This document shows, in pieces, positions 48,101 through 57,443 of a stretch of DNA of 64,000 bases. The DNA is from an uncultured Spirochaetaceae bacterium (GTDB lineage Bacteria; Spirochaetota; Spirochaetia; Sphaerochaetales; Sphaerochaetaceae): contig CALXYM010000001.1 of NCBI GenBank assembly GCA_944392965.1, positions 1 to 64,000 of the forward strand, given 5' to 3'. Under the pieces are notes generated by a model. The model was given only the letters and a program-made list of their open reading frames with translations. It was not told the DNA's origin and searched no databases. The position numbers and the translations under genes are program-made. Within the stretch, counting starts at the first letter, position 1. The number at the start of each line of letters is the position of its first letter.

Positions 48101-48182
48101 ATGCCACTTTAATCCGTATTTTCTGGGTTTGAGGTATATGGCTGCCGTCTGAGGTAAGTAATTCTTGGAGAAACAATGTTTT

Positions 48183-48203
48183 GGGCCTTGTGCGGGCCCT
48201 TTT
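48183..48203 (+). terminator. Terminator of ftsH
   Basis: Stem GGGCC/GGCCC (48183-48187, 48195-48199) then TTTT. Short stem, well placed 80 bases after the stop. Confidence 0.55.
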
Positions 48204-48257
48204 GTTGTGCTCGAATCATATTACCTAATTTAATGAATATGGATTATGACATAGAAA

Positions 48258-48780
48258 ACGGACTATGTCGATTCGTTCAAGAAGCCGCCAAGCACGGAAA
48301 TCAAGCTCATTAGCGGCAAGTAGTATCACTACCGGACAAGCTGCGAATATGACAGGAGACAAAGAGGTTGAGAAAGAAATATCCCAAGAGGAGAGCGAAT
48401 TTGCCTACCGCAGATATCGAGATCTAGGACAAGGAGGTAGGTACACCTCGTATTTCTACAATAGGGCACGTACCTCCTCCGTCAACTGCAGGTATATTTT
48501 CCGATTAATGAAAGGAGCTGTTTGCCATCGTAGTTATAAGAGCAGTCTACGAATCTCCACCCAAGAGGGATGCAGTCCGGTATGAATGTTCAATCCTGTC
48601 AGAAATCTATTTGGTACTGAGACTCTCGAATGATGACATTTCTCCACTTCTGCAGAGGGGCGACATGGACAGGAAGCACATCAGACTGTTCCTGAACCAC
48701 CTGTCAAGCCTGATAGCCTACGATGATTCCATTATATGACAAAGAGACAGCAACATGCTGAAAAACTCTTCTTCAAGGAT
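48258..48780 (+). pseudogene. Degenerate IS1634-type transposase, copy 1
   Basis: Several frames on the plus strand are recognisable. From 48261: DYVDSFKKPPSTEIKLISGK, then stops and shifts. From 48515: ELFAIVVIRAVYESPPKRDA followed by VRYECSILSEIYLVLRLSND and SSLIAYDDSII, then TGA at 48737. The SFKKPPxTEI start and the order resemble IS1634/IS4-like transposases as I recall them. It is broken by frameshifts and stops. The stretch 48781-48993 holds further fragments without an open frame. A second partial copy lies at 55795-55990. Confidence 0.65.
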
Positions 48781-48993
48781 TTCAGAGTAAAACTCTTGTC
48801 AACTGCCACATGCAAGAGCATAGGAGAGCGGAAAGTGTAGAAACTCACTGAGAAACGGAAGTCTTTTCTGGTCAAGTTCGATGTCGATATTTAGGGTATT
48901 CTGGAGGCCCTCAACACTTCAATTTGAGGCACTTCTTGATCCTTAAAACTCAGAAGGTATAGTTTTATTCAAACCAACATACTACTTGTATTG

Positions 48994-50292
48994 TCATAAA
49001 ACGATTGGAAAATGCTTTTTAATGCACCAAGGATCAGGATAATTGATATCCTTCCCGAAGAATAAATTGCGTGCCATACATCCTCCTCGACAAACATTGT
49101 AATAATTACAATTTAAGCAAGCTGCATTTCCCTCTAATTTTCTTAAACTCAGAAATTTAATGCCATTCTCCCATATATTCTTAATGCTTTTATTTCGCAA
49201 ATTATCATTTTCGGATTTTTTCAATTCATCTGGAAGAAAACCGCAAGTAAGGGCATTACCCTCAGCGTCAAACACTATATTCACTTTGCCTGCGAAACAT
49301 CCATAGCCTTCATATGGGTATACTATATCCAATGGAACTATGATATTATCGTCTGAATTATATACAAGTCGTGTATCTCCCCATGAAAAATCCAAAGTAA
49401 ATTTGTCCTTATATTTTTTATTCCAAATATTTTGAGCTTCTTTTATAAAAAAGATATATTGCTCTGCGGTAAGAAATACATCGCGATTTTTTATAACATT
49501 TCCTGCTGGTTTAACTGGTCGTACTTTAAGACGGTCAAATCCAAATTCATTGATTAAGGCAAGTAATTTCTCAGCAGTCTGAAAATTGTATGGATTAATT
49601 GTAATACTTGCTGCAATTGTAAATCTACAATACTGTTTCAACAATTTAAGATTATCTTTAATTAGAGAAAGTCCTTTTACACCCCGCACTCTTTCATACT
49701 CAGACTCGTCTGAGCCATCAATACTGATTGACAAGTATTTCAGATTCCATTTTGCCATACGTTGTACAAGTTTTTCATCAGTCAATAATAGACCATTCGT
49801 GAAAACCTTAGTTACAATATTGCGCTCTAAGCATGCTTCTACAAAATCAGGAAAAGTACTCTTTGTAAAAGGCTCACCTCCACCAATTAAAATTTCATTA
49901 ATACCTAATTCATACATCTGATCCAGCATATGAATTTTCTCTTCAAATGTCATTTCTGACGAAGATGAATCACTTTTAGAAAAACAGTGAGCACAATTCA
50001 AATTACACGATGAAGTGTAATAAAAATGAACACGCCCAGGAGCAGAAAGTGTATCGTTTGTAAATCCAGAATCAATTAGCCTATAATTGGGATGATAGTT
50101 AACTAAAAATTCTTCGTCTTCTAAGAATGAAGCATCTTCTTCTCCAATGGTCTGCAAAATTTTTGTATCTGGAATATTTTTTAAATACGCAAGTGCACTG
50201 TAAAATTCTTCGTCTATCAAAATATTTGTGTCTTCTTGGCGGTCATAGACCAACCCACCAAAAAACTCATGTCGCACAACATACCTTTCCAT
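48994..50292 (-). CDS. Radical SAM/SPASM-like enzyme with PqqD-like N-terminus
   Basis: 432 residues from the ATG at 50292 (GGAG 7 bases ahead). Residues 1-50 (MERYVVRHEFFGGLVYDRQE) resemble the PqqD/RRE peptide-binding domain. The radical SAM cluster motif is CNLNCAHC (CX3CX2C). The C-terminus has SPASM-like cysteines: YGCFAG, CGF, CLNCNYYNVCRGGC, CIKKHF. This layout is typical of enzymes that modify ribosomal peptides (PqqE/MftC-type, sactipeptide and related). It follows the 26-residue peptide gene by about 125 bases. It is the last gene of the AT-rich island. Confidence 0.88.
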   Translation of the reverse strand: MERYVVRHEFFGGLVYDRQEDTNILIDEEFYSALAYLKNIPDTKILQTIGEEDASFLEDEEFLVNYHPNYRLIDSGFTNDTLSAPGRVHFYYTSSCNLNCAHCFSKSDSSSSEMTFEEKIHMLDQMYELGINEILIGGGEPFTKSTFPDFVEACLERNIVTKVFTNGLLLTDEKLVQRMAKWNLKYLSISIDGSDESEYERVRGVKGLSLIKDNLKLLKQYCRFTIAASITINPYNFQTAEKLLALINEFGFDRLKVRPVKPAGNVIKNRDVFLTAEQYIFFIKEAQNIWNKKYKDKFTLDFSWGDTRLVYNSDDNIIVPLDIVYPYEGYGCFAGKVNIVFDAEGNALTCGFLPDELKKSENDNLRNKSIKNIWENGIKFLSLRKLEGNAACLNCNYYNVCRGGCMARNLFFGKDINYPDPWCIKKHFPIVL

Positions 50293-50418
50293 ACTAAACT
50301 CCATTCAATTATGTTGTTCTATTTAAGGCAGTATGTGAAAGATTAAAATCAGAATTAGGTTATAAACCCCATATACAGTACGATTGGTTAAATAAGTTTC
50401 AAATTTATATTTTAAATC

Positions 50419-50499
50419 TCAAGTACACCACTTAAAACGGATAACTTTTTTGCCTGACAATTTTGAAATAGAATTTGCAAAAATGTATTTCTTTTTCAT
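50419..50499 (-). CDS. 26-residue peptide, candidate RiPP precursor
   Basis: A tiny gene read by eye: AAGGAGGGGAT ahead of ATG at 50499, TGA at 50419-50421. The peptide begins MKKKYIFANSISKLSG and ends KKVIRFKWCT: basic, with Lys, Trp, Cys and Thr at the end as possible modification sites. It lies directly upstream of the PqqD-radical SAM gene and downstream of the methyltransferase, all on one strand. The strong ribosome site and position support it; the short length leaves real doubt. An in-frame ATG 11 codons upstream (50532) would add residues with Cys, but lacks its own ribosome site. Confidence 0.5.
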   Translation of the reverse strand: MKKKYIFANSISKLSGKKVIRFKWCT

Positions 50500-50555
50500 A
50501 TCCCCTCCTTTTTCGTAACCACATACTGCCATAAAGGCAACAACAAAACAAATGC

Positions 50556-51344
50556 CTATTTTTGCAATATTATAACATTGTGTTTAGAAGCCCCCAAGAT
50601 AAATCTTTCTGTTGATTTTTCATATAAATAGTCACAAAGGACATCTAATTGTTCTTGAGACAAAGATGCTACCTTATCATAAAAATAGCCCAGCTCTAAA
50701 TCTACAGCACAATGGGAAAGAATAGAGCAATTAAAATCTTTTGCAAGGCGTTCCATTTCTTCTGGAGAAGAGAAATATGTACACCCCCAGAACCCTCTTC
50801 GTTGGCCTGGCAGATAACCATGTTCAGCTAAATACATTACCTCTCCGAACGGAATTTTGTAAACAGAATTATTTAACAAATTCCACATAGCAAAATGCCG
50901 AGGCATATAGGCCAATATCAATACTCCATCATTTTTCAGAACCCGAAGACATTCTTCAATACATTTCGCATTAAGATCAGGTCTCAAATGATACATTGGA
51001 CCAAGACATAACACAACATCAAAAGATGAATCGACGTGACGTTTTAAATTCAGAGCATCATCCACATAAGCTTCAATTTTGTTTGGATACTTCTCTTCGA
51101 GTATTTTAATATTTCGAGGAGAAAGATCTGAGGCCACAATTCTGTTACATCCATTTCCCAAATAGAAGTCAATATATGCACCTGGACCAGAGGCACAATC
51201 TAACAAATCACAACCACGGTATATATATGGTTTGATGATTCTACATGTGTTGATATACTCAATCTTTTTGCGGGGATCAATGAATCTATTTTCTTCATCG
51301 TCATTTTCGTAATACTCTTGAACTCGTTTTACTTCATTATTCAT
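50556..51344 (-). CDS. SAM-dependent methyltransferase (class I)
   Basis: 262 residues. SAM-binding motif LLDCASGPGAYIDFYLGNGC, acidic strand end VASDLSPRNIKIL, and VVLCLGPMYHLRPDL (motif IV). The C-terminal part GFWGCTYFSSPEEMERL is less conserved. Methyltransf_11/25 type, with an unknown substrate, perhaps the peptide or a sugar in this cluster. It overlaps the GNAT gene by 8 bases and ends 56 bases before the peptide ATG. Confidence 0.87.
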   Translation of the reverse strand: MNNEVKRVQEYYENDDEENRFIDPRKKIEYINTCRIIKPYIYRGCDLLDCASGPGAYIDFYLGNGCNRIVASDLSPRNIKILEEKYPNKIEAYVDDALNLKRHVDSSFDVVLCLGPMYHLRPDLNAKCIEECLRVLKNDGVLILAYMPRHFAMWNLLNNSVYKIPFGEVMYLAEHGYLPGQRRGFWGCTYFSSPEEMERLAKDFNCSILSHCAVDLELGYFYDKVASLSQEQLDVLCDYLYEKSTERFILGASKHNVIILQK

Positions 51345-51810
51345 CTATACCATATTCTAAACTCATTTTCTGAAGACAAAAGCCATTTTTTACAAAAAAC
51401 TTTTCTGATTCATGATTAAATGCCCACACATTACTTTCAAGACGACTGCATCCAATTGACTTTGCGAAGTCTTTGACATATGCAAGCATCGAACTTCCAA
51501 CTTTATTTTTTCTAAAATTCAGATCAACACAAGTATCTTCGATACTAATTACTTTTGCATTTCGATACTTTATATCATCAGTGTATGTATGAATTGTGCA
51601 GAGGATAACGCCTATAATCTTTTCGCTATTAGTAGCAACAACAATTAAATGATTGGATGATAATATATTATATTCGAGTTTCTTGCGTGTAATGTGATAT
51701 GGATGTTCAACAAATATATCTGGCCGATTTTGCCCATGCTTATCGGCAACTAAATTTGTCAATTGTAAAATTTGATCGATATCTTTTGTGCTAGCTTGTC
51801 TAATAATCAT
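51337..51810 (-). CDS. GNAT-family acetyltransferase
   Basis: 157 residues. IIRQASTKDIDQILQLTNLV, then VISIEDTCVDLNFRKNKVGS with the acetyl-CoA loop (RKNKVGSSML), and WAFNHESEKFFVKNGF. Acetylates an amine; the substrate is unknown, possibly a sugar or peptide amine here. AAGGA precedes the ATG. Overlaps the methyltransferase. Confidence 0.85.
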   Translation of the reverse strand: MIIRQASTKDIDQILQLTNLVADKHGQNRPDIFVEHPYHITRKKLEYNILSSNHLIVVATNSEKIIGVILCTIHTYTDDIKYRNAKVISIEDTCVDLNFRKNKVGSSMLAYVKDFAKSIGCSRLESNVWAFNHESEKFFVKNGFCLQKMSLEYGIDE

Positions 51811-51822
51811 TTCAAATCCTTA

Positions 51823-51954
51823 TTAATCTAAACCCATACACTTGAATAATCTTACTTGGTTAGGGTATTTGTCTTTTCCGCATTCGCAACGAACATCAAG
51901 TGACACGTCAGATAGGAATAAATTTTTAATATAACCTAATGTATAGATTATCAT
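51823..51954 (-). CDS. 43-residue protein, unknown, Cys-containing
   Basis: A small gene found by reading the minus strand: ATG at 51954 overlaps the cytidylyltransferase stop (ATGA), TAA at 51823-51825. The sequence runs MIIYTLGYIKNLFLSDVSLD and VRCECGKDKYPNQV, then RLFKCMGLD, with three Cys (CEC...C). The spacing of CEC and the Gly-Leu end recalls the C-terminal ECDC...YRAIGLRCDC part of the radical SAM protein at 54065. It could be a precursor peptide, an accessory domain, or a remnant of a radical SAM end. The gene coupling favours translation. Confidence 0.5.
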   Translation of the reverse strand: MIIYTLGYIKNLFLSDVSLDVRCECGKDKYPNQVRLFKCMGLD

Positions 51955-52613
51955 ATTATTTCTCCCAATTTACGTTTAAAAAGGAAATCAGCAATCTCAA
52001 AATCTAACTCCGAATCAATATCGATAGCTTCCGTTTCATTTACAGGAAGAAATAGATGTTTGGGACAAATAATATTCTTATATTTTATCATATCTGTTTT
52101 AGATATAATATTTACTGCAAAATTCAGGGCATAAATGTTTGGTAAATCCTGACTTCGAGGCTGGCTCATTGGATTATAATTAATGGCAGATCCCTCAAGA
52201 TACATAAATTCCTTTATCAGATGTACTGTATTAACTGATACCTGGTTTTTTATATGCTCTTTGAACAATGATATTGCATTGTATATAGTAGTATCTTCTA
52301 TCAACGGATTTGTTACATTGCAATAAGCAATATAATCAGAAGGAAAATTCTCTGCCATATTTACGTATACATCATTCATCGAAATATAAGAAGTTGCATA
52401 TTTTTCATCTCTTTTGACAGTTTCACAATTTAATTTACGAGCTAAATCCAACATTGAAGAATCGTTGGAATTCACAACAATTCCATCTATACCGTTTATC
52501 CTAGATAATTGCCTAATTTTAATTTCTAGCAGAGAACTATTACCAAACCTTCGGATATTCTTATTTTTTACACGCTCTGAACCTGAGCGAACAGCAATTA
52601 AAGCTTTTAGCAT
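51951..52613 (-). CDS. CMP-sugar (acylneuraminate-like) cytidylyltransferase
   Basis: 220 residues from the ATG at 52613 (GGAG ahead). ALIAVRSGSERVKNKNIRRF is the RxGSxRxxxKN motif of NeuA/KdsB-type nucleotidyltransferases; NVTNPLIEDTTIYNA and TEAIDIDSELDFEIAD match later NeuA regions. Likely activates a sialic-acid-like nonulosonic sugar or related acid with CTP. Sits 1 base after the glycosyltransferase-like stop. I see no sugar-biosynthesis gene in the window. Confidence 0.8.
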   Translation of the reverse strand: MLKALIAVRSGSERVKNKNIRRFGNSSLLEIKIRQLSRINGIDGIVVNSNDSSMLDLARKLNCETVKRDEKYATSYISMNDVYVNMAENFPSDYIAYCNVTNPLIEDTTIYNAISLFKEHIKNQVSVNTVHLIKEFMYLEGSAINYNPMSQPRSQDLPNIYALNFAVNIISKTDMIKYKNIICPKHLFLPVNETEAIDIDSELDFEIADFLFKRKLGEII

Positions 52614-52614
52614 T

Positions 52615-53967
52615 TTAGCATTCTCCTTCATATTTTAGTATGATTTCTAAGCCAGAATGTAAAAGACAAAATGTTGTTTCGGCCTCTCTACATTCTGTCG
52701 AACTAATTTGGCCTGCAAGATACAAATTACTTCTACTGCAAAACAATACAGGGCTTTCAGAACTTTTTTTCATGATTATGCTATATTTATGTAAGCAAGA
52801 GCTGAACCAGATGGCTTCTTCATAATTAAGTGTAACAGCAAGGTCATTGGAGTTAAGATGTATTTTTTGATCAGTTATTACAACTCCTTTTTTTTCCCAA
52901 TGCTTGGAAAGAACATAAGCTATTTCTTTTATCCCTACAACATTAGAATAAAAATGAATAATATTATAATTTAAAAGAGTATTTTCTAACTTCAATGACA
53001 CATATAATGGAATAATATCAGAAATCCTTAGCATCCAATATCTAGAAGCAGCTATATTCTTTTCTACCAAATTGTAAATCTTATCTGATGCACTTGTTTC
53101 AATCGAAATTAATGTTTTTATCCTACAGCCAGGAATTAATTGTAAAAACTCAATTGGAAAAGTTTTATCCAGCAAAATTGATTGTGGAAAATATAAATCG
53201 AAAGAAAACACCCCATGCGGATGCGGTTTAATTATCAGGCGTTCAGAAGGGATTCCCAACAAATCTATCAAAAGTGTATAAGGGGCTATAATATCTTTTA
53301 CATATTTTCCATAAACCGCAAGGGCTCTTTTTGTAAGACTCTCAGAATTAGGGATAAGTAGTATTAAGACTTCACAACATTTCTTATAATCAATTGTCAG
53401 ATAAGATGTCAAAATTTTATCTTTTTTATCTTTGCTAAGGCTTGCGATATCAATTGGATCAAAGTAGCACATTTGCCCAGGAAGAGATCCATCCACATCA
53501 GACTCTGAATAATAAATATGATTCTTACAGCACCTATTATTTCCTATAACAGCCCCATAAGTGAAAACTAAATCACAATAAGAAGATGAAATTTCTTCGT
53601 ATTGATTGATTGATTTTAATAATCGTTTGCTGGCAAATTCATTTTTAGAAAACTCTACTAGAGAATACGGTACTTTCATTATGATAAGAAACAGTTCAAA
53701 CAAGCAGTATGCACCACTGTTAGAGACAAAAACCTCATCAACAGCATTTATATCAATTCCATTTTCGTCAAACAAAGAAACAAAATATTCCTTAATTCTT
53801 GAAGAAAGCAAAAAAGACGAAGTCTGTAAATTTGCTAAATACTTATAATCATAGAGAATAAGGCAGAATAAGCTGTTTCCTTCCATTCGTTTTAAACATT
53901 TTAACTGCTCTTCATCTGCAGGTGATATAAGAAAGAAAACTTTGTCAAAAGTTGATGTAATACTCAA
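52615..53967 (-). CDS. Probable glycosyltransferase (GT52/polysialyltransferase-like)
   Basis: 450 residues as an open frame from a TTG. KPHPHGVFSFDLYFPQSI resembles the KPHPR motif of GT52/polysialyltransferase-like and CDP-glycerol-type enzymes, with IPSERLIIKP before it and CRIKTLISIETSASDKIYNL after it. Next to a NeuA-like gene, a nonulosonic-acid transferase is likely. The reading frame continues upstream (IRVSLFCGDHFGCLSQCLSI) to an ATC at 54018 placed 6 bases after GGAGG, with an in-frame TAA just before it, so the true start may be non-canonical. Substrate unknown. Confidence 0.6.
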   Translation of the reverse strand: MSITSTFDKVFFLISPADEEQLKCLKRMEGNSLFCLILYDYKYLANLQTSSFLLSSRIKEYFVSLFDENGIDINAVDEVFVSNSGAYCLFELFLIIMKVPYSLVEFSKNEFASKRLLKSINQYEEISSSYCDLVFTYGAVIGNNRCCKNHIYYSESDVDGSLPGQMCYFDPIDIASLSKDKKDKILTSYLTIDYKKCCEVLILLIPNSESLTKRALAVYGKYVKDIIAPYTLLIDLLGIPSERLIIKPHPHGVFSFDLYFPQSILLDKTFPIEFLQLIPGCRIKTLISIETSASDKIYNLVEKNIAASRYWMLRISDIIPLYVSLKLENTLLNYNIIHFYSNVVGIKEIAYVLSKHWEKKGVVITDQKIHLNSNDLAVTLNYEEAIWFSSCLHKYSIIMKKSSESPVLFCSRSNLYLAGQISSTECREAETTFCLLHSGLEIILKYEGEC

Positions 53968-54064
53968 ACATTGAGATAAGCAACCAAAATGATCTCCACA
54001 AAATAACGAAACTCTGATTTTTTCCTCCTTTTCTTAAATGTCAACTCTTTGATGACAAAAATCG

Positions 54065-55030
54065 TTATTCTATTACATAAATCCCATCTGTTCTAAATAA
54101 CGCCTTATTCCTTGGAGATAATACGACAAGATTGAGAAAATCTTTATCGGCGGTTAAATAGTTACTTCCCTTATTAATTTTATCGTACCATTTATCTAAA
54201 ACACAGTCGCACCTTAATCCAATAGCCCTATAAACATCCTTCCAATAGGGCGAGCAATCACATTCAGGCAAAGTACTTTCTAACCTTATACTTTTTCCGG
54301 AGGAATCTATTGTATAATTGAATGCATTTTGTATCACAATGCATTTTGGAGTAATGGAAAAAGCCCATTCCAAGAATTCTGGGGTTTCTGAAATAGAGAT
54401 AGGAGAATTCAATAGTTTTACTCCCAAGTTTGTTTTCCCGGTTTTCTTTATGATTTCACAAAATCTTTTCGTCTTCTCTATATCCAACCCCATAATTGTT
54501 CTGTAACTAGAAGTAGAAAAACCATTGAATGAAATCATAATTGAATTACAGACTTCCGACACAAATTTCGCTTCTACTTCCCCTGCATTACCATTTGACT
54601 TTAAATGAATCCATGTATTTGGATTAGATGCACGATACTTACGCATAAAATCCATAGCTTCTTTTTGTATTAGAATTTCTCCTCCTGAGAAAAACACCCA
54701 ATAAGCCTCTAATCTTTCAAGAAAGGAAAGAAGATAATCATAGAATGCATATTTGTCATTTCGATGAGCATCATTCTGAAAACAGTATAGGCAGTTGGCT
54801 TGACAAACGCTGCTAACTTCGATTGTAATCATATTGAAAATACCTCTATCCATGGTGTCAAATGCCTGTTCATAAACAATAGCCGCAGCATTCTTTTCTG
54901 TAATATGACAAATTGGTCTCGTTTTATATGTTTTACAATCTGGATATATATTCCCATAACGATCAACATAAATTAGTTTTGGAGTTTTTACATAATAATT
55001 AGGATGATTTGCATACGTAAATCTATTCAT
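54065..55030 (-). CDS. Radical SAM protein of the island
   Basis: 321 residues. An N-terminal domain of about 70 residues (PKLIYVDRYGNIYPDCKTYK), then the radical SAM motif VCQANCLYCFQND (CX3CX2C), GGEI motif, and a barrel to about residue 240. The end has a CDC...CDC cluster (LPECDCSPYWKDVYRAIGLR), perhaps a site for a further cluster. It overlaps the Sel1 gene by 8 bases. Function unknown; probably modifies a peptide or small molecule. Confidence 0.82.
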   Translation of the reverse strand: MNRFTYANHPNYYVKTPKLIYVDRYGNIYPDCKTYKTRPICHITEKNAAAIVYEQAFDTMDRGIFNMITIEVSSVCQANCLYCFQNDAHRNDKYAFYDYLLSFLERLEAYWVFFSGGEILIQKEAMDFMRKYRASNPNTWIHLKSNGNAGEVEAKFVSEVCNSIMISFNGFSTSSYRTIMGLDIEKTKRFCEIIKKTGKTNLGVKLLNSPISISETPEFLEWAFSITPKCIVIQNAFNYTIDSSGKSIRLESTLPECDCSPYWKDVYRAIGLRCDCVLDKWYDKINKGSNYLTADKDFLNLVVLSPRNKALFRTDGIYVIE

Positions 55031-55574
55031 CTTCTTTGCTCCTCATTTCTCCTAGTTTTTCACATGCTTTGCAATTTCCTTGGGCAGCTGCTTTTACATA
55101 CCACTCATGTGCTAGATGTAAATCCAACGGAAATAAATTACCTGTTTCATAACAATGAGCTAAATTCATTTGTGCCTCTGCATCTTCATTCTCAGCTGCT
55201 AGCAACAACCATGTTTTTGCATCATCAAGGTTTTGAGGTACTCCACGGTTTCCAAATAGAAAATAGCAACTAATCATTCTTTGACTTACAGGATCTCCTA
55301 ATTTTGCTTGTTGATACAAATCTTCAAAGGCCTCGACAAATAATCTTTGAGCAATATTTTTGTTTAATCTTTTTTTTGATTTTGATAAAAGAATCGCTAG
55401 TCCATACATGCATTTTGCATTTTTGTTTTCTGTACCTTCTTTATATGTATTCTTGGCCTTTTCTAAATCCTTACTTACGCCATAACCAAACGAATAACAA
55501 ACGCCTTGGTAATATAGAGAATCTATTTCATCTTTCTCTAAAAATCCCTTTTGATAGATCATCTCTGAATTCAT
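55023..55574 (-). CDS. Sel1-repeat protein
   Basis: 183 residues from the ATG at 55574 (GGGAGG ahead). Contains Sel1-like helical repeats: YYQGVCYSFGYGVSKDLEKA, AKCMYGLAILL, AKLGDPVSQRMISCYFLF with GNRGVPQNLDDAKTWLLLAA, and AQMNLAHCYETGNLFPLDLH with WYVKAAAQGN. A scaffold type; probably binds a partner protein. It is the first gene of the island operon. Confidence 0.83.
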   Translation of the reverse strand: MNSEMIYQKGFLEKDEIDSLYYQGVCYSFGYGVSKDLEKAKNTYKEGTENKNAKCMYGLAILLSKSKKRLNKNIAQRLFVEAFEDLYQQAKLGDPVSQRMISCYFLFGNRGVPQNLDDAKTWLLLAAENEDAEAQMNLAHCYETGNLFPLDLHLAHEWYVKAAAQGNCKACEKLGEMRSKEDE

Positions 55575-55638
55575 GATCCCTCCCAAAAAAAATTTTGCCT
55601 AAAGTTGTTAAAAACAAGGAGAATAAGTAGTTTCTAAT

Positions 55639-55666
55639 ATTTTATATCAAGACTGTTATTTCTCAA
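55639..55666 (-). promoter_or_regulatory. Candidate sigma-70 promoter of the island operon
   Basis: On the minus strand TTGAGA (55661-55666) and TAAAAT (55639-55644) with a 16-base spacer, about 65 bases upstream of the Sel1 ATG. AT-rich surroundings make this tentative. Confidence 0.45.
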
Positions 55667-55794
55667 CTGAAATTTAGTTGCGTTACAGGGCTACTTCGTA
55701 ATTGTTGGCCAGCAATCGTAAATGGCTTAATATTCAGCATTGTGGATGCTCCTGCTGTTATTTTTTGCTTTCTTGCAGTTTGCTAAGAACTGTC

Positions 55795-55990
55795 CATGAA
55801 TTTCCAATCAAGAGGGTTATAAACTGGTATGAATGGTCAATCCTGTCAAAAATCTATCTGGGCTGAGACTTTCGAATGTTAGCAGTTCTCCTCTTCTACA
55901 GAGGGGCGACTGGAAGTATATCAGGCTGTTCCTGAATTACTTGTCAAGCCTGATAGCCTACGATACATAAGGTACAGCAACATACTGAAA
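55795..55990 (+). pseudogene. Degenerate IS1634-type transposase, copy 2
   Basis: A diverged direct copy of 48549-48772: GTATGAATGGTCAATCCTGT, AGAGGGGCGACTGGAAG and TTGTCAAGCCTGATAGCCTA recur in the same order with small deletions. It is in the same orientation as copy 1, so the two bracket the island. The rest of 55667-56098 is AT-rich with no gene that I can identify. Confidence 0.75.
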
Positions 55991-56098
55991 AAAATGACTT
56001 TAATAAAACTTTAACAATAGTTTAGTCTTTCCCAAATACAAGTTTGGTATATATAAAATCAAATAGTGACGCATACATAATTGCCTATGTTATCCCTG

Positions 56099-56916: not shown

Positions 56917-57443
56917 ATGCGGATAATTCTTCACCGGGACATACCGACCGGGTGGAGATTAAAGAATGCGACGGTCAAGGAGACTGCAAACGGGAAGTTC
57001 TTCATCTCCCTCACGTTCGACGTTGAGGAGGAGAAGAGGGAGACGAGGAAGGAGTTCGATAAGGTCGAAGCCTTCGACTACTCGATGCCGTCGCTTGTCG
57101 TCTCCGCATCCGGAGATAACGACATCTCGTCCGACGACATCCGCTGGTATCGCAGTCTTGAGGAGAAGATTGCGAAGGAGCAGCGGAAGCTCTCACGGAT
57201 GCAGTACGGCTCTGCCAGCTACTGGGAGCAGAAGCACAAGACAGGGAATGGACATGCAAGAGCTGCGGGACGTACCACGACCGGGACAAGAATGCGACAA
57301 GAAACCTGCTGGATGAGGGTAAGGACATCCTGAACCGCTGGGCTAGCGGGGATAGCTCGTTGATACTGGCTCCAACAGGGGTCTTGAGCGGGAAGAAGCT
57401 ACATCCTCAGGCTCACAGTAATGTGAGACAGGGTGGAGAGTAA
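56917..57443 (+). pseudogene. TnpB (IS200/IS605) remnant with internal deletion
   Basis: Frame one reads IILHRDIPTGWRLKNATVKE and KVEAFDYSMPSLVVSASGDN then WYRSLEEKIAKEQRKLSRMQ, which is the RuvC-I region of TnpB (FDYSMP where DxG/DLG is expected). It then jumps frame into the zinc ribbon REWTCKSCGTYHDRDKNATR and ends QAHSNVRQGGE. The N-terminal 150 or so residues and the RuvC-II to zinc-ribbon middle are missing. So it cannot cut, but shows former IS605 activity. Confidence 0.85.

Follow-up and report, generated by a model that had tools for sequence, protein, structure and literature searches.

A possible orphan RiPP-type locus with an MftB/MftC-like fusion enzyme in an AT-rich island of an uncultured Spirochaetaceae bacterium

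Introduction

Mycofactocin, a radical-SAM peptide, is glycosylated by MftF (PMC7491314). The mycofactocin system (MftA-MftB-MftC, MftF, MftM) is resembled by a gene island of an uncultured Spirochaetaceae bacterium, which encodes a putative MftB-like RRE, an MftC-like radical SAM/SPASM enzyme of 436 residues and, upstream, a short peptide frame. However, in the island the RRE is fused to the enzyme, the enzyme scores below the MftC cut-off, the candidate peptide lacks a C-terminal Val-Tyr, MftD and MftE are missing, and genes of the CMP-sugar type stand in place of MftF, whereas mycofactocin glycosylation uses a sugar donor of a different kind. The SuiB/streptide-type KxxxW maturases also join an N-terminal RRE to a radical SAM/SPASM part, as the 436-aa enzyme does, but the island peptide contains no KxxxW and the sequence identity is 16%.

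The same RRE-radical SAM architecture is found twice in tandem on a plasmid of Rhizobium sp. T1473, with 28% identity to the island enzyme, although that locus has no NeuA, GT or GNAT gene. Beside its two tandem enzymes (positions 5632-11879 of L019) are genes for a TPR protein, a thymidylate-kinase-like protein and a MazG-like pyrophosphohydrolase. With the nonulosonic acid (sialic, pseudaminic, legionaminic) loci the island shares a NeuA/PseF-type CMP synthetase, a GNAT acetyltransferase and a methyltransferase; unlike them, it has no NeuB, NeuC or Pse genes and carries two radical SAM enzymes. No description of such a gene set was found in the literature. The island lies in a stretch of 64,000 nucleotides, which was analysed as a whole and is called the window here; the source genome (2.4 Mb in 38 contigs) is 95% complete.

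Results

Gene content and insertion site

The preliminary description of this DNA as an AT-rich island of seven co-oriented, overlapping or closely spaced genes, with two tiny genes besides, holds (Table 1). Each of the seven reading frames is uninterrupted, all are encoded on the minus strand (48994-55574), and several share a few bases with a neighbour; the run from the Sel1 gene to the methyltransferase gene is tightly overlapping, and the 436-aa gene stands 251 bp apart. The GC content is 31-34% in the island (31-35% in its seven genes) versus mostly 40-49% (lowest 37%) in the remaining window, and GC3 is uniformly low, at 0.23-0.28 in all seven genes, compared with 0.47 ± 0.05 in 28 other window genes. 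By its composition the island is foreign, and it is probably a horizontally acquired locus.

Table 1. Features of the island and its surroundings, in window coordinates.
Feature	Position	Strand	Evidence or remark
Sel1-repeat protein, 183 aa	55023..55574	-	Pfam Sel1 1.2e-18; corrected start ATG 55574, preceded by GGAGG
Radical SAM protein, 321 aa	54065..55030	-	Pfam Radical_SAM 1.2e-9; CX3CX2C; C-terminal CxC pairs
Glycosyltransferase-like (GT-like) protein	52615..54018	-	Possible ATC start at 54018
NeuA/PseF-type CMP-sugar synthetase	51951..52613	-	ATG 52613; CTP_transf_3 2e-15
43-codon frame	51823..51954	-	4-nt overlap with NeuA end
GNAT acetyltransferase	51337..51810	-	Pfam 9e-12
Class I SAM-dependent methyltransferase	50556..51344	-	Pfam Methyltransf_11 3e-13
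26-codon frame MKKKYIFANSISKLSGKKVIRFKWCT, candidate precursor peptide	50419..50499	-	AAGGAGGGGAT then ATG
Inverted repeat, 24/29 complementary	arms 50309-50337 and 50520-50548		Encloses the 26-codon frame
Putative MftB-like RRE + MftC-like radical SAM/SPASM fusion, 436 aa	48994..50292	-	Radical_SAM 3e-20, SPASM 7e-5
Insert (island and boundary sequence)	48101..56010		Flanked by ftsH (to 48100) and mgtC (from 56208)
Degenerate direct repeat, left	48537..48724		About 80% identical to 55784-55964
Degenerate direct repeat, right	55784..55964		Partner of 48537-48724

The Sel1, radical SAM, NeuA-like, GNAT, methyltransferase and radical SAM/SPASM assignments made earlier are likewise backed by Pfam matches of 1e-9 or better (7e-5 for SPASM). 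Neither a SPASM nor an RRE was recognised in the 321-aa radical SAM protein. For the radical SAM/SPASM gene ATG 50292 is the more likely start, giving the same beginning as in the relatives. The 43-codon frame had no family match in Pfam or NCBIfam, and its reading as a truncated DUF488 was dropped for want of profile support. No peptidase, exporter or immunity gene is present in the island, the promoter and terminator scans gave site numbers not above those in shuffles, and the Rfam search returned no match.

The distance between the FtsH and MgtC genes ranges from 210 to 1905 bp among seven sister species and reaches 8.1 kb in the window. Window positions from about 56011 on align with the sister sequence that comes after ftsH, so the insert of some 7.9 kb spans about 48101-56010, directly after ftsH. 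The interval is variable in the genus: it may be empty or hold the present island, a MATE transporter or, judging by eye from translations, an Lnt-like or a glycosyltransferase-like gene. The degenerate direct repeats near the insert ends exist in two copies only, genome-wide. The remnant of an IS605-type TnpB gene lies just outside the insert, at 56917-57333.

The 436-aa enzyme

The catalytic part of this enzyme contains the CX3CX2C radical SAM motif (C100, C104 and C107) and a complete SPASM with seven cysteines (C336, C354, C396, C399, C405, C409 and C427). The top-ranking NCBIfam model is that of the mycofactocin maturase MftC (5e-42), with an equivalog score of 144 bits, below the cut-off of 265. 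The solved structures closest to its AlphaFold model are SuiB with peptide, SkfB, ChlB with leader and anSME (Z 26-28), of which SuiB is the top match (Z 28); viperins match at Z 25. An identity as an antiviral prokaryotic viperin was rejected, as the score of 74 bits falls short of the cut-off (180) and the SPASM is complete. In sequence and predicted structure, the catalytic part thus resembles peptide maturases, MftC being the closest in sequence.

Pfam has no family for the N-terminal 85 residues, and when searched alone they matched only MftB in NCBIfam (E 0.08). A bridge is provided by the G513 fusion protein, found when 393 genomes of the phylum were searched with MftB (TIGR03967): its N-terminus covers 80 of the 85 MftB model positions (E 2e-5), also matches the KxxxW maturase model TIGR04080 weakly, and is 37% identical to the window N-terminus over 67 residues (E 1e-7, pairwise search). 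Since the window N-terminus resembles G513 and G513 resembles MftB, the window N-terminus is MftB-like by two steps; without the bridge, the profile comparison with MftB is weak (P 0.003). An MftB/PqqD-type RRE at this end of the enzyme is therefore supported by transitive homology, and the PqqD-like fold proposed earlier would more exactly be of the MftB type. RRE-like domains occur outside RiPP pathways too. In the AlphaFold model residues 1-85 mostly have a pLDDT below 60 and confidence begins mainly at residue 90; few of the 24 sequences in the underlying alignment cover the N-terminus.

A three-row alignment of the window enzyme and the two tandem enzymes of the Rhizobium plasmid, run against 395 genomes of the class, retrieved a further pair of proteins that share this N-terminus and come from a single genome. 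The genome scan with this alignment gave generic radical SAM enzymes because one of its patterns is the common CX3CX2C motif, and the RRE motif, used as a DNA pattern, had no match in viral contigs.

The candidate precursor peptide

The 251 bp that precede the 436-aa gene contain the 26-codon frame, which has AAGGAGGGG close before its ATG and whose peptide ends in KWCT. When the intergenic stretch was shuffled 3000 times, a frame of at least 20 codons preceded by AAGGAGG at a functional distance never arose, and one shuffle gave such a frame when six-base cores were allowed; the start site of the frame is non-random. The frame would be a credible peptide gene and is the best precursor candidate. 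Relatives of the peptide were not found in the searched genomes. On the Rhizobium plasmid, a 45-codon frame with AAGGAG is located upstream of both tandem enzymes, in a position like that of the 26-codon frame; the two peptides share a faint KKxIxFK only, which we have not counted as evidence.

The inverted repeat around the frame (24/29) exceeds the best of each of 12 island shuffles (20-22) and is present in a single copy in the genome; a repeated MITE was accordingly rejected for this unit. Elsewhere, in G267 (L179 5230-7566), a peptide ending ...DACCACTACSACSACK comes directly before two tandem radical SAM genes, an arrangement suggestive of a distinct RiPP locus.

The sugar genes

The NeuA-like protein matches the CMP-NeuAc synthetase 1eyr at 6e-11, with its QDLP-type and IDIDxELD motifs kept, and PseF at 6e-17, below the cut-off. 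A NeuB was not found in the 95% complete genome, in which the sole match is a DAHP-synthase-like protein; either the cell would need to import the acid, or the enzyme would use a different one. The decoration with a nonulosonic-like sugar that was suggested earlier fares poorly against this absence.

For the GT-like protein (450 aa), there was no Pfam match even at E 10 (GT52 and GT38 included) and no NCBIfam match, and AlphaFold from the single sequence reached a mean pLDDT of 34. Its KPHP...PIEFL...SIETSAS presumably resembles motifs of GT-B enzymes that use CMP-sugars. The frame is open upstream to ATC 54018, which follows GGAGG, a strong ribosome-binding site, by 5 nt, and TTG 53967 has no ribosome-binding site; the ATC may be a weak start or may stand for an ATG that was lost or misassembled. 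Together, the NeuA-like and GT-like genes suggest a CMP-sugar step. On plasmids, the NeuA relatives whose surroundings were inspected belong to polysaccharide-type loci; NeuB accompanies several of them, and none has radical SAM genes beside it. In enterobacterial plasmids (L021 5212-9917, L023 5161-9896) a trio of NeuA-like, inositol-monophosphatase-like and NeuB-like genes is found beside a large protein without a Pfam family.

Distribution of the gene set

A homologous cluster was found neither in relatives, nor in the 395 class genomes, nor in a scan of 85,000 species that covers close relatives only, so that the conserved cluster with short peptides beside the radical SAM genes, named earlier as the support to look for, did not appear. 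Searches with the 321-aa radical SAM protein in 197 relatives, the 395 class genomes, viral contigs, phages, plasmids and the same 85,000-species scan, which again covers close relatives only, gave nothing close, and the GT-like protein likewise had no close relative in relatives, phages or viral contigs. Homologues of the radical SAM proteins in unrelated contexts had been named as a sign against a peptide pathway: those of the 436-aa protein do sit in other contexts, and for the 321-aa protein no close relatives were found. One protein with the same kind of N-terminus occurs in G235 (L162 7514-11473), where three radical SAM proteins are encoded beside PKS/NRPS-type genes.

Discussion

We propose, with about even confidence, that the island is a horizontally acquired, orphan RiPP-type locus built on an RRE-radical-SAM enzyme, with a possible CMP-sugar branch. 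The 26-residue peptide would be the likely substrate: the N-terminal MftB-like RRE of the 436-aa enzyme would hold its leader and, if mycofactocin and streptide are a guide, the radical SAM cluster would abstract a hydrogen from the peptide core; the radical SAM/SPASM part may introduce a crosslink or a decarboxylation-type change. Tailoring of the product or its carrier would then fall to the 321-aa radical SAM enzyme, the methyl- and acetyltransferases and the NeuA-like and GT-like branch. That a ribosomal peptide is modified by radical SAM chemistry, as suggested earlier, is favoured by the RRE homology, the maturase-like catalytic part and the candidate precursor with its non-random ribosome-binding site; the small frame before the Rhizobium enzymes and the close packing and common composition of the island genes also speak for the proposal. 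Against it stand the lack of relatives of the cluster or the peptide in the searches and of a peptidase, exporter or immunity gene in the island, and, for the sugar branch, the missing NeuB and the possibly damaged start of the GT-like gene.

How far the other genes belong to this chemistry is judged from gene order, by which we infer that all island genes may act on one product and that the sugar branch may share it with the peptide enzyme. The full sequence of events, in which the fused MftB-MftC-like enzyme changes a ribosomal peptide and a CMP-activated sugar acid then decorates it, is quite improbable in our view; we know of no precedent for such a donor in RiPP tailoring. The island could instead be a surface-glycan cassette, in which the NeuA-like and GT-like proteins decorate a polymer of the cell surface with a CMP-activated sugar acid while the radical SAM enzymes, GNAT and methyltransferase modify the sugar and the 26-codon frame serves as a regulatory leader. 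The conserved motifs of the NeuA-type synthetase, the GT-like motifs, which we take to resemble those of CMP-sugar GT-B enzymes, and the inverted repeat around the frame all fit such a cassette, as does the frequency of GNAT and methyltransferase genes in surface-glycan loci. However, the genome has no NeuB, the island has no flippase or polymerase, and an MftB-like domain is of the peptide-binding type, and we consider the cassette unlikely.

Alternatively, at least two unrelated cargo modules, one comprising the peptide maturase and its peptide and another, at the opposite end, for the sugar, may have gathered on a decaying mobile segment without a joint product. The flanking degenerate repeats, the TnpB remnant and the variable site would be expected of such a segment, and the 251-bp gap between the 436-aa gene and the rest and the ATC start in the GT gene point the same way; yet GC3 is uniform across all seven genes, which share one strand, and the overlaps from Sel1 to methyltransferase are tight, so that this origin too appears doubtful.

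The RiPP-type reading is checkable with two genes only, those for the 26-mer and one enzyme. If it is true, the MftB/MftC architecture would serve not only redox cofactors but also an orphan peptide system that has moved laterally, and if the sugar branch joins in, CMP-sugar chemistry would be linked to RiPPs.
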